A DNA stretch of 5,858 nt. Source: an uncultured Prevotellaceae bacterium. Its GTDB lineage: Bacteria; Bacteroidota; Bacteroidia; Bacteroidales; Bacteroidaceae. A program made the position numbers and the translations under genes. The stretch lies in contig CAMPCG010000194.1 in NCBI GenBank assembly GCA_946644025.1, positions 1 through 5,858 on the forward strand, read 5' to 3'. This document shows positions 496-5,858 of the stretch, piece by piece. The notes under the pieces are model-generated. The model searched no databases, was not told the DNA's origin, and saw only the letters and a list, made by a program, of their open reading frames with translations. The first letter of the stretch is position 1, and each line of letters starts with the position of its first letter.

Positions 496-855
496 ATGAA
501 AAAGATTGTTTTGATGGTAGTAGCCATGATGACCATGACCATGAGCTTCGCTGAAAACGAGAACACGAAGGCTGTGAAGGGTATTGAGGCCTACGACATG
601 ACGGTCAATATGAGAAAGCTGGCCGTTACGCTGGGTCTGACCTTCGACCAGATGGAAGCCGTGAAGGACATTCACCACCAGTTCTCGCAGGAAATGATGA
701 TGGCCGCAACAGCTGAGAGCGACGAGCGTGAGGCTCTGGTAGACCAGGCTGTTAAGAAGGATGCACGCTATATGCACTACGTGCTGAACGACAAGCAGTA
801 CAAGACTTACCTCATGCTGCTTAACGTCACGCTCCAGAACCGTGGCCTCAAATAG
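496..855 (+). CDS. Small secreted Spy/CpxP-like helical protein
   Basis: This is a 119-residue protein with a clear Sec signal peptide: KK at 2-3, a Met/Val-rich hydrophobic core at 4-18, and likely cleavage after SFA (residue 19). That leaves a mature chain of about 100 residues outside the inner membrane. The mature part looks all-helical and charged. It has LTFDQ at 48-52, an exact LTxxQ motif as in the Spy/CpxP periplasmic chaperone family, and a second similar LNDKQ at 97-101. There are no cysteines and no lipobox. The start follows a purine-rich stretch (469-495) with AGGAA, and the signal peptide begins right at this ATG. It has its own promoter and its own terminator, so it is transcribed alone, probably strongly. 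The family link rests on two short motifs and general shape. A Bacteroidales-specific protein of unknown function is the alternative. Confidence 0.85.
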   Translation: MKKIVLMVVAMMTMTMSFAENENTKAVKGIEAYDMTVNMRKLAVTLGLTFDQMEAVKDIHHQFSQEMMMAATAESDEREALVDQAVKKDARYMHYVLNDKQYKTYLMLLNVTLQNRGLK

Positions 856-1009: not shown

Positions 1010-1618
1010 ATGACTATAGAACTCAATGAGGTGACCCTTCCCGGCTCTGAGCAGGCATTGTCGCTGCTGGCCGACGAGGGTCAGCTGACGTGTATCACTG
1101 GCGGCAGTGGCGAGCGTCGCACCCGCTGCCTCTATATGCTGATGGGCTTCGAGGCCCCCTCGGGCGGCTGCGTTAGCGTCGACGGCGAGCCGCTTGCCGG
1201 CGGCTGCATCAACCATCTGCGCAAGCACATCGCCTTCGTGCCGGCCAGCCTCGACACCGTTGGGCAGCTTGTGCCCTACGAGCCTCCCACCATTCAGGAC
1301 GTGCTCGCCCTGCGCTCCAACCGCGGCCTTGCTATCAGCGAGGCCGACGTTGAAGAGGAGTGCCGGCGTGCGGCGGGAATAGCCAATCCCCTCCAACAGC
1401 CGGCGTCTGGCAGGCAGGATTCGCTCCGTCGGCAGAAAGTCTTGTTGCTGGCTGTGGCGGTGCTGCGCCGCAAGCCCGTGCTGCTGGTCGACAGCCCTCT
1501 GGCCTCGACAGCCACCTACCTGCAGCAGCAGGCCCGCCAAGAGGGTAGGACGGTCATCGTGGCCACCGACGATGCCGCCGTCGTCAGGCTGGCCGACAAT
1601 GTTGTAAGCCTGATATAA
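1010..1618 (+). CDS. Degenerate ABC-ATPase-like protein (probable pseudo-ATPase)
   Basis: This 202-residue protein follows the fold order of an ABC ATPase but has lost the catalytic residues. The Walker A region (31-38) reads GGSGERRT instead of GxxGxGKS/T, so the lysine is Arg37 and a glycine is Arg36. The Q-loop is VPA (Ala79, not Gln). The signature is ASGRQ (132-136) or SLRRQ (138-142) rather than LSGGQ. Walker B (157-163) is VLLVDSP, with Asp161 kept but Ser162 in place of the catalytic Glu. The H-loop is TDD, with Asp187 replacing His. The frame is open throughout and the hydrophobic strands are kept, so it looks maintained rather than decayed. The ATG at 1010 was chosen because the first beta strand (IELNEVTL) begins there. 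An in-frame TTG at 923 lies inside the preceding terminator. There is no membrane segment and no permease partner in view. The large glycosyltransferase fusion starts 28 bp downstream and is probably co-transcribed. Its role is unknown; a regulatory or scaffolding partner is a guess. Confidence 0.75.
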   Translation: MTIELNEVTLPGSEQALSLLADEGQLTCITGGSGERRTRCLYMLMGFEAPSGGCVSVDGEPLAGGCINHLRKHIAFVPASLDTVGQLVPYEPPTIQDVLALRSNRGLAISEADVEEECRRAAGIANPLQQPASGRQDSLRRQKVLLLAVAVLRRKPVLLVDSPLASTATYLQQQARQEGRTVIVATDDAAVVRLADNVVSLI

Positions 1619-1646: not shown

Positions 1647-4600
1647 ATGACATCAAGCATTGATTTTTGTTCATTATACGCCATCCCCGAACTACTTGAC
1701 CTCCCCATCGTTTCGCAGACATTGACCGTCGACGAGCTGCGCAGCAGTGCGTCGCTGCGCAGCGTGGCCCGTTGGTCGTCGGCTCCGTTCGTGGCCTTGC
1801 TGACGAAGCCCGTCGAGATGATTCTCGGCGAGTGTGCCCTCGACCGCATGGCCCAGGCCGCCGCCGACACGGGGGCCGCCATGGTCTATGCCGACCGCTG
1901 GACCTCAGCGAAGGGTGAGCTGAAGAAACATCCCGTCGTCGACTACCAGTTGGGCAGCGTGCGCGACGACTTCGACTTCGGCCCCCTGCTGCTCGTTCGG
2001 GGCAGTCTGCTCCGCCAGTGGGCCGACGAGGCTGAGGCGTCGTCGTATGCCTACGCCGGCCTCTACGACCTGCGCCTGTGGCTGAGCCGCCACGGCCGGC
2101 TGCTGCACCTCGACGAGCTGCTCTATACCGAGGCCGAGACCGACCTGCGCGCGTCGGGCGAGAAGCAGTTCGACTACGTCAACCCCGCCAACCGCGAGGT
2201 GCAGGTAGAGATGGAGCAGGCCGCCACTGCCCACCTCCAGGCCATCGGCGCACTTGTGGACATCGGCGAATACACCGAGGTGGACTTCACCGAGCAGGAC
2301 TTCCCCGTCGAGGCCACAGTCGTCATACCCGTCTACAACCGCGAGTCGACCATTGCCGATGCCGTAGGCAGTGCCCTCTCGCAGAAGACCTCGTTCCCGT
2401 TCAACGTCATTGTCGTGGACAATCACTCCACCGACGGCACGGGCATGGTGCTGAGCGAGGAGCTGAAGCATTGTGAAGACGGGAAGCTGATAGTCCTTAC
2501 CCCCGAGCGCACCGACCTTGGCATAGGCGGATGCTGGAACCTGGCCGTCGACGACCCCCGCTGCGGACGTTTCGCCGTGCAGCTGGACAGCGACGACCTC
2601 TACTCCTCGCCCCAGACGCTGCAGCGCATTGTCGATGCCTTCTACAGTCAGCGGGCAGCCATGGTGGTGGGCTCCTACCGTATATGCGACTTCCACCTCC
2701 AGACCTTGCCGCCGGGACTTATAGCCCACCGGGAGTGGACCGACGACAACGGGCCTAATAACGCGCTGCGCATTAACGGATTAGGTGCTCCGCGTGCTTT
2801 CTTTACTCCATTGCTGCGCGAGTTCCGTTTGCCCAATACCAGCTATGGCGAGGACTATGCCATGGGGCTGCGCTTCTCGCGCCAGTACCGCGTCGGGCGC
2901 ATCTACGACGAGCTGTACCTCTGCCGCCGCTGGGGTGGCAACAGCGACTCCAACCTGAGTCAGGAACGCCTCAATGCCAACAACCACTACAAAGACCAGC
3001 TGCGCACCATCGAGATACTGGCCCGCCAGGCCTTGCACGAGGCACACGGTGGCAGTGGCCCGTCGTCTCCCCTGGACCGCTTCTTCGACCGTCAGATGCG
3101 GCTCTGGCCCGACACCCTGCGCCGCTACCACGACCTGTCGGGCGTTGAGACCCGCACGCTGTCGGCCAGCACCGACGACGGCCCTGCCGAAGCAGAACCG
3201 GCACCAAACATGCCCCTCGCGGTGCAGCACAACCCCGCCCGCATACGCTCCACCGGCGCTTCCATCAGCCGCGAAGCCCTCAGCAAGCGCCCATGCTTCC
3301 TCTGCCGGAAGAACCGCCCCGAGGAGCAGCTCACGTCGCATATCGTCATTCACAGCTCGCAGCTGCATAACTACGCCCTCTATCCCACGAACTACGAGCT
3401 GCTCGTCAATCCTTACCCCATCCTTCCCCGCCACTTCACCATCGTAGCCGGTAGCCACACGTCGCAGCGCATACTGCCCATGCTGCCGCTGATGATGCAC
3501 ATGCTCGACAAGTATGCCGACCTGACGCTGTTCTACAACGGTCCGCTGTGTGGAGCCTCGGCCCCTGACCATGCCCATCTGCAGGCCGGCACCAGCGGCA
3601 TCCTTCCCCTGCAGCGCGAGTGGCCGCGACTGGCAGCACACCTCACGCCCCTTTCGCTGGGTGACGCTGGCGGCGACGCAGCGACGGACTCGAAGGCCGA
3701 CGATGCACTGATGGCCACCATCGACGACTATCCCTGCACCGCTGTGCTGATACGTGCCACCAAGGCCAGCGACTGTCTGCAGCTCTTCCGTCGGCTCTAC
3801 GACGTGCTGCCTGTCCCCGACGGACAGGCAGAGCCGATGATGAACATCGTGGCCTGGCGCAACGGCAGCGACCGCCTGATGGTGGTCTTCCCCCGTGCCA
3901 AGCATAGGCCCGACTGCTACTATCAGACCGGTGACGACCAGCTGCTCGTCAGCCCCGGCGCCCTCGACATGGCGGGACTGATCATCACGCCCCGCCGCGA
4001 GGACTTCGAACGGCTTACGCAGGAGCGGGCCGTCGGCATCCTGCGTGAGTGCAGCCTCAGCTCCATTCCCGCCGTCCAGCCTGCCAAGAAAGCCGCTCAC
4101 ACCTTGCCCTGCGAGCCCAGCGTCAGCGTAGGAATCCTCACAGCCGACCATCTGGACTTCCACCTCAACGGCACTTACCAGGCCAAGGGCGAGACCATCT
4201 GCGGACCGCAGACCGTAGAGCTGTCAGGGGGCAGTCTGCTATGGCGTGGGCAGCAATATCAGGAACTGTGCTTCACGCCGGTGCTCTCACCCGCCACCGC
4301 TCACCCCTTGCCCCTCGACAGTTCGCAGAGGCCCGAGTCGTTCACCCTTCAGGATGTCACGATTGGCAAAGGATTCCACTGGGAACAGCAACAGCAGCAA
4401 ACGTTCCTGGGCACGCTGCGCCTGATGGTGGACGGAGACAAGGTGTTGGCCATCAATGAATTGCCCGTGGAAGACTATCTGGAAAGCGTCATTTCCAGCG
4501 AGATGAGTGCCGACTCGCACCCTGAGCTGCTGAAGGCTCACGCCGTCATCTCCCGTTCGTGGGTGCTCTACCAGAAGCAACTCAGGAGCAGGAACCGACA

Positions 4601-5471
4601 GGCGCAGGCCGGGAAACCCTCCATCATCCGCAAGGACGGCGAACTGCTACGCTGGTACGACCGTGAGGAGCACACGCTCTTTGATGTGTGTGCCGACGAC
4701 CACTGCCAGCGATACCAGGGCATCGGGGGAAGTGAGGGAGTGATGAGTGAGGGAGTGATGAGTGAGGAAGTGATGAGTGATAAGCTGGCGGCTGCCGTCA
4801 ATGCCACCCGCGGCGAGGTGCTCACCTACGGCGGCGAGCTTTGCGATGCACGCTTCTCCAAGTGCTGCGGAGGTCAGACCGAGGAGTTCCAGTACTGCTG
4901 GGACGACACGCCCCGGCCCTATCTGCGAAGCGTTGCCGACCCCTTCTGCAATACCAGCGACGAGCGCGTGCTGAGGCAGGTGCTGCGCGACTACGACCAG
5001 CAGACCATCCCTTCGTTCTACCGCTGGACGGTGGAGTACACGCAGGAAGAGCTCTCGGAACTCGTGGCGCGGAAAACACAGCTGGACCTGGGAACCATTA
5101 CCGACCTCGTCCCCCTCTCGCGCGGCAAGAGCGGACGCATCTGGCGCCTGCAACTCGTAGGCACCAAGGGCAGTTTCGTCATAGGAAAGGAATTGGAGAT
5201 AAGGCGGGCCCTGAGTGAGACCCACCTGCTCAGCTCGGCCTTTGACGTGGAGGTCGTCGACTGTTCAACCTCGGCCGAAGGACATTCGGAAAGTGCTGAC
5301 GCTGTCTCAGGCGTCGTCTTCCGCCTCCATGGCCGGGGGTGGGGACACGGCGTAGGACTGTGCCAGATAGGTGCCGCGATGATGGCCGAGAAGGGCTATT
5401 CCTACCGCGACATCCTTCAGCACTACTATCCGGGAGCCGAGATTACTTCTCTAATTCAAAAACGGGGATAA
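1647..5471 (+). CDS. Glycosyltransferase family 2 / DUF4922 / SpoIID-LytB fusion protein
   Basis: This is a 1274-residue multidomain protein. Residues 45-165 resemble the second half of a GT-A glycosyltransferase (VYADRW, then a DLRLWL segment) but lack the nucleotide-binding half. Residues 222-455 are a family 2 glycosyltransferase: TVVIPVYNRE at 224-233, a DSDD metal site at 314-317, and GED at 401-403 as candidate catalytic base. A Pro/Ala/Glu-rich linker (about 505-525) leads to a DUF4922 domain (about 540-800) with CxxC (550-553) and HAHLQ (642-646). That is the HxHxQ motif of GalT and Ap4A/GDP-galactose phosphorylases, with His644 as expected nucleophile. A second linker (about 803-822) precedes a SpoIID/LytB domain (825-1270) with the conserved VISSEM glutamate (Glu952), a KCCGG cysteine cluster (1073-1074) and GRGWGHGVGLCQ (1229-1240). 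SpoIID enzymes cleave peptidoglycan strands lacking stem peptides, but no signal peptide or membrane segment is visible here. Three SEGVM-type repeats (1029-1043) sit in a SpoIID loop. No promoter is seen in the 28-bp gap to the upstream gene, so the two probably form an operon. Sugar donor and acceptor cannot be told from sequence. Confidence 0.9.
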   Translation: MTSSIDFCSLYAIPELLDLPIVSQTLTVDELRSSASLRSVARWSSAPFVALLTKPVEMILGECALDRMAQAAADTGAAMVYADRWTSAKGELKKHPVVDYQLGSVRDDFDFGPLLLVRGSLLRQWADEAEASSYAYAGLYDLRLWLSRHGRLLHLDELLYTEAETDLRASGEKQFDYVNPANREVQVEMEQAATAHLQAIGALVDIGEYTEVDFTEQDFPVEATVVIPVYNRESTIADAVGSALSQKTSFPFNVIVVDNHSTDGTGMVLSEELKHCEDGKLIVLTPERTDLGIGGCWNLAVDDPRCGRFAVQLDSDDLYSSPQTLQRIVDAFYSQRAAMVVGSYRICDFHLQTLPPGLIAHREWTDDNGPNNALRINGLGAPRAFFTPLLREFRLPNTSYGEDYAMGLRFSRQYRVGRIYDELYLCRRWGGNSDSNLSQERLNANNHYKDQLRTIEILARQALHEAHGGSGPSSPLDRFFDRQMRLWPDTLRRYHDLSGVETRTLSASTDDGPAEAEPAPNMPLAVQHNPARIRSTGASISREALSKRPCFLCRKNRPEEQLTSHIVIHSSQLHNYALYPTNYELLVNPYPILPRHFTIVAGSHTSQRILPMLPLMMHMLDKYADLTLFYNGPLCGASAPDHAHLQAGTSGILPLQREWPRLAAHLTPLSLGDAGGDAATDSKADDALMATIDDYPCTAVLIRATKASDCLQLFRRLYDVLPVPDGQAEPMMNIVAWRNGSDRLMVVFPRAKHRPDCYYQTGDDQLLVSPGALDMAGLIITPRREDFERLTQERAVGILRECSLSSIPAVQPAKKAAHTLPCEPSVSVGILTADHLDFHLNGTYQAKGETICGPQTVELSGGSLLWRGQQYQELCFTPVLSPATAHPLPLDSSQRPESFTLQDVTIGKGFHWEQQQQQTFLGTLRLMVDGDKVLAINELPVEDYLESVISSEMSADSHPELLKAHAVISRSWVLYQKQLRSRNRQAQAGKPSIIRKDGELLRWYDREEHTLFDVCADDHCQRYQGIGGSEGVMSEGVMSEEVMSDKLAAAVNATRGEVLTYGGELCDARFSKCCGGQTEEFQYCWDDTPRPYLRSVADPFCNTSDERVLRQVLRDYDQQTIPSFYRWTVEYTQEELSELVARKTQLDLGTITDLVPLSRGKSGRIWRLQLVGTKGSFVIGKELEIRRALSETHLLSSAFDVEVVDCSTSAEGHSESADAVSGVVFRLHGRGWGHGVGLCQIGAAMMAEKGYSYRDILQHYYPGAEITSLIQKRG
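4731..4780 (+). repeat. In-frame 15-bp tandem repeat inside the SpoIID domain
   Basis: AGTGAGGGAGTGATG occurs at 4731-4745 and 4746-4760. A third copy with one G-to-A change is at 4761-4775, and AGTGA follows at 4776-4780. It encodes SEGVM, SEGVM, SEEVM and then SD. Both other plus-strand frames of the unit contain TGA stops, so only this frame could be tolerated. It looks like a recent expansion in a loop between YQGI and the AVNATRGEVLTY strand. Confidence 0.85.
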
Positions 5472-5858
5472 ACGACTTGTCGACGGCGGTGGTCACGGTC
5501 TGGCCTCCCTCGTAGGTCTTACCCGTGCGGCGGTCGCGCCAGTGCCCTTCGGTCTTGGGCAGATAGGTCTGCCACTCGCTGACGCCGGGCTCTGTGACGG
5601 GGCTGATGAGCAGCCGCGGCCCAAACATATACTCGTATTTCTGCTGGAGCGCCACGGGGTCGTCGGCGAAGTCGAAGATGAGTGGACGCATGAGCGTGTA
5701 GCCCTCGGTGCTGACACGGCGGGCGCACTCCTCGATGTAAGGACGGAGGGCTTCGCGCTCCTTGATGCAGCGAGTGATAATCTGCTGTGCTTCAGGTCCG
5801 TAGTTCCAAGGCTCTGTATTACTCATATAGCCATGCACGCGCATCAGCGGCAGATAGA
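5443..5858 (-). CDS. GH31 family glycosidase (alpha-xylosidase/alpha-glucosidase type), C-terminal part
   Basis: The reading frame stays open to the right edge, so only the last 138 or so residues are present and the true start lies outside the window. The visible part begins YLPLMRVHGY, the GH31 segment after the catalytic barrel motifs. It continues with EPW, a REALRPYIEE helix, the MRPLIFDFADDP motif, YMFGPRLLISPVTE, and the YLP...HWRDRRTGKTYEGG beta domain that is strongly conserved in GH31. The SPVTE wording is closest to alpha-xylosidases of the YicI kind. The catalytic aspartates lie upstream and cannot be checked. GH31 enzymes remove terminal alpha-linked glucose or xylose from oligosaccharides; in Bacteroidales they are usually periplasmic. 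Its stop (5443-5445) lies inside the end of the convergent glycosyltransferase fusion gene, and no terminator separates the two. Confidence 0.92.
   Translation of the reverse strand, partial: YLPLMRVHGYMSNTEPWNYGPEAQQIITRCIKEREALRPYIEECARRVSTEGYTLMRPLIFDFADDPVALQQKYEYMFGPRLLISPVTEPGVSEWQTYLPKTEGHWRDRRTGKTYEGGQTVTTAVDKSFIPVFELEK

Follow-up and report, generated by a model that had tools for sequence, protein, structure and literature searches.

What brings a glycosyltransferase, a domain of unknown function and a SpoIID-type module together in one polypeptide? The question is posed by a 5,858-nucleotide stretch of DNA, here called the window, from an uncultured Prevotellaceae bacterium (GenBank assembly GCA_946644025.1, contig CAMPCG010000194.1), in which a single open frame at 1647..5471 on the plus strand encodes 1274 amino acids plus a stop and joins a family 2 glycosyltransferase (GT2), DUF4922 and SpoIID. 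We consider it reasonably likely (about 0.6) that the protein is a cytoplasmic, multi-active enzyme of peptidoglycan-fragment salvage, derived by fusion from three genes that are inherited together and that in other Bacteroidota are often found beside the muropeptide permease AmpG. The computed part of this proposal consists of active sites with all key residues, joint inheritance of the genes, their order and the lack of a visible export signal; the substrate, direction and product we infer.

One frame and three co-inherited genes

The first-pass annotation of this DNA, made from the letters alone, had described three motif-complete modules, and profile searches agree. In one chain, GT2 (PF00535, residues 224-352, 64.3 bits against a cut-off of 23.3), DUF4922 (PF16269, residues 479-648, 164.4 against 23.6) and SpoIID (PF08486, residues 931-1061, 87.4 against 23) all exceed their curated Pfam cut-offs, as does the NCBIfam model TIGR02669 (SpoIID_LytB, residues 935-1267, 183.2 against 83.3). 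DSDD (residues 314-317), HAHLQ (642-646), Glu952 and GWGHG (1231-1235) are invariant in a 16-sequence alignment that includes the window protein.

Whether the GT2 fusion is widespread had been left as a question, and an assembly error had been named as a possible refutation. Among the matches listed (120 of 7999 scored), all full-chain homologues are 1187-1335 amino acids long and come from many contigs; the five that carry an organism name are all Prevotella. A tblastn scan of species genomes, from which the best 80 loci were taken (46-78% identity in the best segment), found a single frame of more than 1100 amino acids with DSDD, HxHxQ and GHGxG in 74. Since homologues of equal length occur on many contigs and most loci have one frame, the fusion is no assembly error, and it is widespread. 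Among the other loci, three (L049, L070, L074) break off at a contig end, L072 has a GT2+DUF4922 frame followed by SpoIID, and L077, from Bacteroides clarus, encodes the modules as three separate genes in the same order. At L056 (9548-13657) the fusion frame spans 1369 amino acids and has no SpoIID GHG end motif, while the tblastn match continues to 13890; a frameshift or stop may lie near its 3' end.

The three parts are also inherited together. Strong DUF4922 matches occurred in 41 of 296 Bacteroidota genomes, after three weak matches were dropped. A profile of the tandem GT2, applied with an E-value limit of 1e-40, matched in 40 of these 41 genomes (none in G160) and a long form of SpoIID, described below, was likewise found in 40 (none in G227), each against 0 of the 255 others; 39 of the 41 contain the full set. 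The distance from DUF4922 to GT2 is at most 1.5 kb in 32 of the 41, whereas just 17 have SpoIID no more than 8 kb away. The three genes thus remain together in genomes even when they are not neighbours.

Fusion itself is variable. DUF4922 occurs in 179 of 201 genomes of the B. clarus family, and 150 frames among the matches listed there, typed by length alone, comprise 32 below 500 amino acids, 75 long enough for two modules and 43 for all three. Twenty of the 75 two-module loci were fetched: 18 are GT2+DUF4922, one is DUF4922+SpoIID and one (L195) has a DUF4922 match only. As GT2+DUF4922 predominates and SpoIID comes next in 17 of its 18 loci, the pattern fits a stepwise fusion of an operon with its order unchanged. 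The first-pass statement that DUF4922 and SpoIID occur joined in other Bacteroidales holds for one of these 20 loci, the commoner two-module fusion being GT2+DUF4922.

The modules and their predicted chemistry

For structure prediction the chain was folded in two pieces, with the SpoIID part left out. In the 475-residue AlphaFold2 model (predicted local distance difference test score, 88; predicted template modelling score, 0.86), residues 1-465 align with both glycosyltransferase domains of the chondroitin polymerase K4CP (2z86). Residues 1-~205 (1647..2261, plus strand, as are all module features below), which few further rows besides K4CP span, are therefore probably a further, degenerate GT-A-like domain, with no DxD visible by eye. 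The catalytic domain (PF00535; residues 221-468, 2307..3050) is a GT2 glycosyltransferase by profile and motif residues, with predicted transfer activity from a nucleotide sugar. D314, D316 and D317 of its DSDD motif (2586..2597), which we take to be the DxD metal site, and E402, D403, R427, R428 and W429, presumably the ED/RxW-type residues, are kept in 26 of 26 unfused GT2 proteins.

The DUF4922 module (residues 479-~805, 3081..4061), delimited by PF16269 and a fold match, had been labelled GalT/HIT-like. In the predicted model its nearest structural neighbour is an Ap4A phosphorylase rather than GalT, which revises that label. Enzymes of the Ap4A-phosphorylase type use phosphate to split a nucleotide bond. 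Among unfused DUF4922 proteins, the HxHxQ active site (HAHLQ, 3570..3584) is conserved at H642 and H644 in 34 of 34 and at Q646 in 32 of 34. So is a CxxC (residues 550-553, 3294..3305) of possible metal ligands, with C550 in 34 of 34 and C553 in 33 of 34; H604 is conserved alongside. The CxxC plus His may resemble the zinc site of GalT: residues of that type (CxxC plus two His) are conserved in DUF4922 as sequence. A domain family shared with GDP-L-galactose/GDP-glucose phosphorylases is conceivable. Homologues carry PF26216, which we take to be a GDPGP1 C-terminal domain, and one plant paper, in the part available, assigns DUF4922 and GGP proteins to the same superfamily (PMC9871823).

The SpoIID module (residues 825-1268, 4119..5450; TIGR02669, 183.2 bits) opens inside the chain, at about residue 825, with a VxVGI strand that also opens unfused long SpoIIDs (both read by eye). 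By alignment, Glu952 (4500..4502) is the counterpart of Clostridioides difficile SpoIID E101, whose E101A variant is inactive according to the available part of PMC6221140. It is present in 68 of 68 other fusions and in 28 of 29 unfused long SpoIIDs, the last having a gap. H1009, C1015, H1019 and C1020 (4671..4706) align with the C. difficile metal ligands H134/C140/H145/C146; this loop is complete in all 68 fused and all 29 unfused SpoIIDs of the long type, whereas none of 20 short SpoIIDs has it. W1232 and H1234 of GWGHG (5337..5351) are kept in the same 68 and 29 sequences, which were chosen by a GHG-containing pattern. The stage II sporulation protein D equivalog TIGR02870 (spore_II_D) is missed, at 134.2 against 234.75. 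Within the module, an in-frame 15-bp tandem repeat (4731..4780; 3.3 copies, 97% match) encodes a SEGVM-type loop that the other 15 aligned members lack.

Long and short SpoIIDs are different kinds. In the 296 genomes, 92 full TIGR02669 matches were either 726-882 bp or 981-1026 bp long, with none of intermediate length. Four partial matches were not counted; two of these are pieces of G018, which was added by hand to the long group. Long SpoIIDs occur in 40 genomes, all within the 41 with strong DUF4922, and short ones in 52, of which 14 are within the 41. By eye, all 18 short SpoIIDs with an open reading frame (ORF) begin like a signal peptide, whereas in 18 of 20 long SpoIIDs the sequence opens at once with a conserved [EQ]P-x3-[VI]-x-[ILV] strand, the remaining two being truncated (L177) or extended upstream (L183). 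Given two length groups, differing N-termini and a metal loop confined to the long group, the long SpoIIDs form a separate, metal-binding and probably cytoplasmic branch. Hydropathy shows no export signal or membrane anchor in the window protein, whose Kyte-Doolittle mean over 19 residues peaks at 1.25, and its SpoIID module looks cytoplasmic, a point that the first-pass annotation had not considered.

Gene neighbourhood and a probable role in salvage

Among the 74 of 80 loci with at least 1 kb of downstream sequence (six had less), 50 are followed on the same strand, after no more than 300 bp, by an AmpG-family gene, at a median gap of 12 bp; a looser count, which tolerates overlaps of up to 400 bp caused by longest-ORF starts, gives 56. 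The order GT2-DUF4922-SpoIID-AmpG recurs across many loci, including L077 of B. clarus, where the cluster also includes two copies of NamZ, a MurQ that exceeds its curated cut-off, a kinase-like protein of the BadF family and an FAD/Fe-S 2-hydroxyacid dehydrogenase, which could consume the D-lactate freed by MurQ. Further arrangements come from other Bacteroidota. In G227, which lacks a long SpoIID, the order is NamZ-AmpG-GT2-DUF4922, and the next gene encodes a NagZ-like GH3 in which no signal is visible. An Amidase_3 gene lies between SpoIID and AmpG in L128, and the occurrence of amidase and SpoIID together suggests a peptide-free glycan as the substrate. RlpA, which prefers peptide-free glycan, has relatives in 10 of 37 flanks by motif, three of them confirmed as DPBB_1 by profile.

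In the salvage scheme, AmpG would import glycan fragments of peptidoglycan, and the SpoIID module would cleave the bonds between N-acetylmuramic acid (MurNAc) and N-acetylglucosamine (GlcNAc) in fragments free of peptide. The freed sugar may then be shifted among glycoside, nucleotide sugar and sugar-1-phosphate by the tandem GT2 together with DUF4922 and its Ap4A-phosphorylase-like fold, and would so return to the nucleotide-sugar pool. The first-pass suggestion of a coupled salvage pathway gains support from co-inheritance, from the gene order beside AmpG and from a matching published MurNAc/muropeptide operon in Tannerella forsythia; the coupling itself is a proposal.

A more specific scheme, a split glycoside phosphorylase, we put forward tentatively and regard as rather doubtful. 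The inverting GT2 would run backwards on GlcNAc-beta-1,4-MurNAc from imported fragments, converting uridine diphosphate (UDP) and disaccharide to UDP-GlcNAc and MurNAc. The fused DUF4922 would phosphorolyse UDP-GlcNAc to GlcNAc-1-phosphate, pulling the uphill step and recycling UDP, while the cytoplasmic SpoIID would shorten longer peptide-free strands. Inverting GT2 chemistry fits a beta-linked GlcNAc-MurNAc and alpha UDP-GlcNAc, and if UDP-GlcNAc has to be handed from one site to the other, the predominance of GT2+DUF4922 among two-module fusions would be explained. On this scheme the salvage of peptidoglycan sugars would require neither hydrolysis by NagZ nor a kinase. The NagZ-like GH3 directly after GT2-DUF4922 in G227 speaks against it.

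Several observations weigh against salvage in general. SpoIID is close to DUF4922 in only the 17 genomes of the phylum-wide sample given above, and AmpG is absent within 300 bp from 24 of 74 loci (18 by the looser count). The AmpG label is a best match to TIGR00901 with scores under the strict curated cut-off. AmpG is beside neither the window gene, which has a GH31 gene downstream on the opposite strand, nor its nearest relative, L001, where a gene of the glucosamine-6-phosphate-isomerase family and a peptidase-like ORF are found instead. Genomes with DUF4922 show no enrichment of MurQ (33 of 41 genomes against 179 of 255, p 0.20) and have AnmK less often (18 of 41, compared with 190 of 255), either because the fragments are non-anhydro sugars or through ancestry. 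Waddlia SpoIID, a muramidase on denuded strands, leaves mostly non-anhydro ends according to the available part of PMC6635528, and by analogy this would fit the scarcity of AnmK. The cytoplasmic location was read from hydropathy and by eye, and the parts seen of the cited SpoIID literature contain no assayed cytoplasmic SpoIID.

An unlikely rival is a biosynthetic enzyme: a nucleotide sugar would be produced or trimmed by DUF4922, GT2 would use it to assemble a glycan in the cytoplasm or the head group of a glycolipid, SpoIID would trim the product, and the proximity of AmpG would be secondary. K4CP, which the GT2 pair resembles, is a polymerase, and a GT4 glycosyltransferase gene lies between the long SpoIID and DUF4922 in L119 (by profile) and apparently in L113 and L130 (by a similar N-terminus only), which makes such a role conceivable; the loci without AmpG agree with it as well. 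A glycan-cutting module is odd within a synthase, however, and the recurrent order ending in AmpG, with NamZ and MurQ in L077, speaks against this reading. It is still less probable that DUF4922 is a scavenger of Ap4A or nucleoside diphosphate sugars with a regulatory or housekeeping role, the modules serving separate pathways and the fusion being a neutral outcome of operon order. This reading draws on the fold match to Ap4A phosphorylase and on the variable fusion state (32, 75 and 43 of 150 frames), which means that the fusion itself is not required; yet joint occurrence in 39 of 41 genomes, despite GT2 being near DUF4922 in 32 and SpoIID in 17, is hard to reconcile with unrelated functions. 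The substrates of GT2 enzymes and nucleotide phosphorylases are cytoplasmic, and this, with the lack of any strongly hydrophobic segment (maximum mean 1.25), makes it very improbable that the protein is exported without a classical signal to work on the cell's own wall, even though characterised SpoIIDs act on peptidoglycan outside the membrane in the available parts of PMC6221140 and PMC6635528.

Other genes were seen around these loci. At L124, L125, L134, L143, L144, L146 and L147, unfused DUF4922, mostly with GT2 adjoining, stands beside response-regulator, STAS-like and sensor-like ORFs (read by eye for L125, L134 and L144, and assigned to the others by equal ORF lengths), with an RlpA-like lytic transglycosylase nearby. 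L147, on contig C140 of G051, is a second GT2/DUF4922 pair, apparently broken (internal stops or short pieces); an intact DUF4922 and GT2 lie on another contig of that genome. In the window, an ABC-ATPase-like ORF (1010-1615, plus strand; PF00005, 36.5 bits) with a degenerate Walker A by eye (GGSGERRTR) stops 28 bp upstream of the fusion; its homologue has the same position in L001 (9301-9927) and is not among the recurrent neighbours. A 119-amino-acid ORF (496-855, plus strand) begins like a signal peptide by eye and has no family match over cut-off. The 3' part of the GH31 glycoside hydrolase gene (5443-5856, minus strand) overlaps the last fusion codons on the opposite strand.

Relation to known systems

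The kind of each domain is already known and the operon has been published in T. forsythia. Among the open-licence papers that our searches listed, none was seen to describe the fusion, a cytoplasmic branch of SpoIID, the strict joint inheritance or the Apa2-like fold of DUF4922, and we found no role assigned to the three genes next to AmpG. Bacteria of the genera Prevotella and Bacteroides dominate in the gut and rumen; if salvage is correct, they possess a SpoIID branch that works in the cytoplasm and a step of peptidoglycan salvage not yet described, and DUF4922 acquires testable chemistry. As natural unfused versions exist, the three parts can be assayed singly.

Like K4CP of Escherichia coli K4 (2z86), the window protein has two tandem GT-A domains, both of which align, but only the second retains DxD, and the overall root-mean-square deviation of 22.3 indicates that the domains are packed differently. 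DUF4922 matches the fold of the yeast Ap4A phosphorylase Apa2 (4i5t) in the predicted model at 18% identity; PF19327 (Ap4A_phos_N) is under its cut-off of 23.1 in the window protein (14.1) and in the B. clarus DUF4922 (22.8), and has already been assigned, in precomputed annotation, to some homologues. The conserved CxxC and H604 are features of DUF4922. GalT and Arabidopsis ADP-glucose phosphorylase (2h39) share its superfamily and HxHxQ. C. difficile SpoIID (5i1t, 5txu), a membrane-anchored sporulation protein, has the same catalytic Glu and H/C/H/C metal set, whereas the window module is internal to its chain, shows no export signal and fails the equivalog cut-off.

The closest parallel is T. 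forsythia Tanf_08345-08385, where the available part of PMC5388701 describes gtf-gtf-lytB-ampG-ybbC-murTKQ on one transcript, with a functional AmpG. There the parts are three separate genes and AmpG is adjacent, whereas the window has one fused gene without AmpG beside it; 50 of the 74 related loci do have an AmpG-family gene directly downstream. By analogy, the second gtf may be DUF4922, and the order gtf-gtf-lytB-ampG-ybbC is the same as in B. clarus L077.

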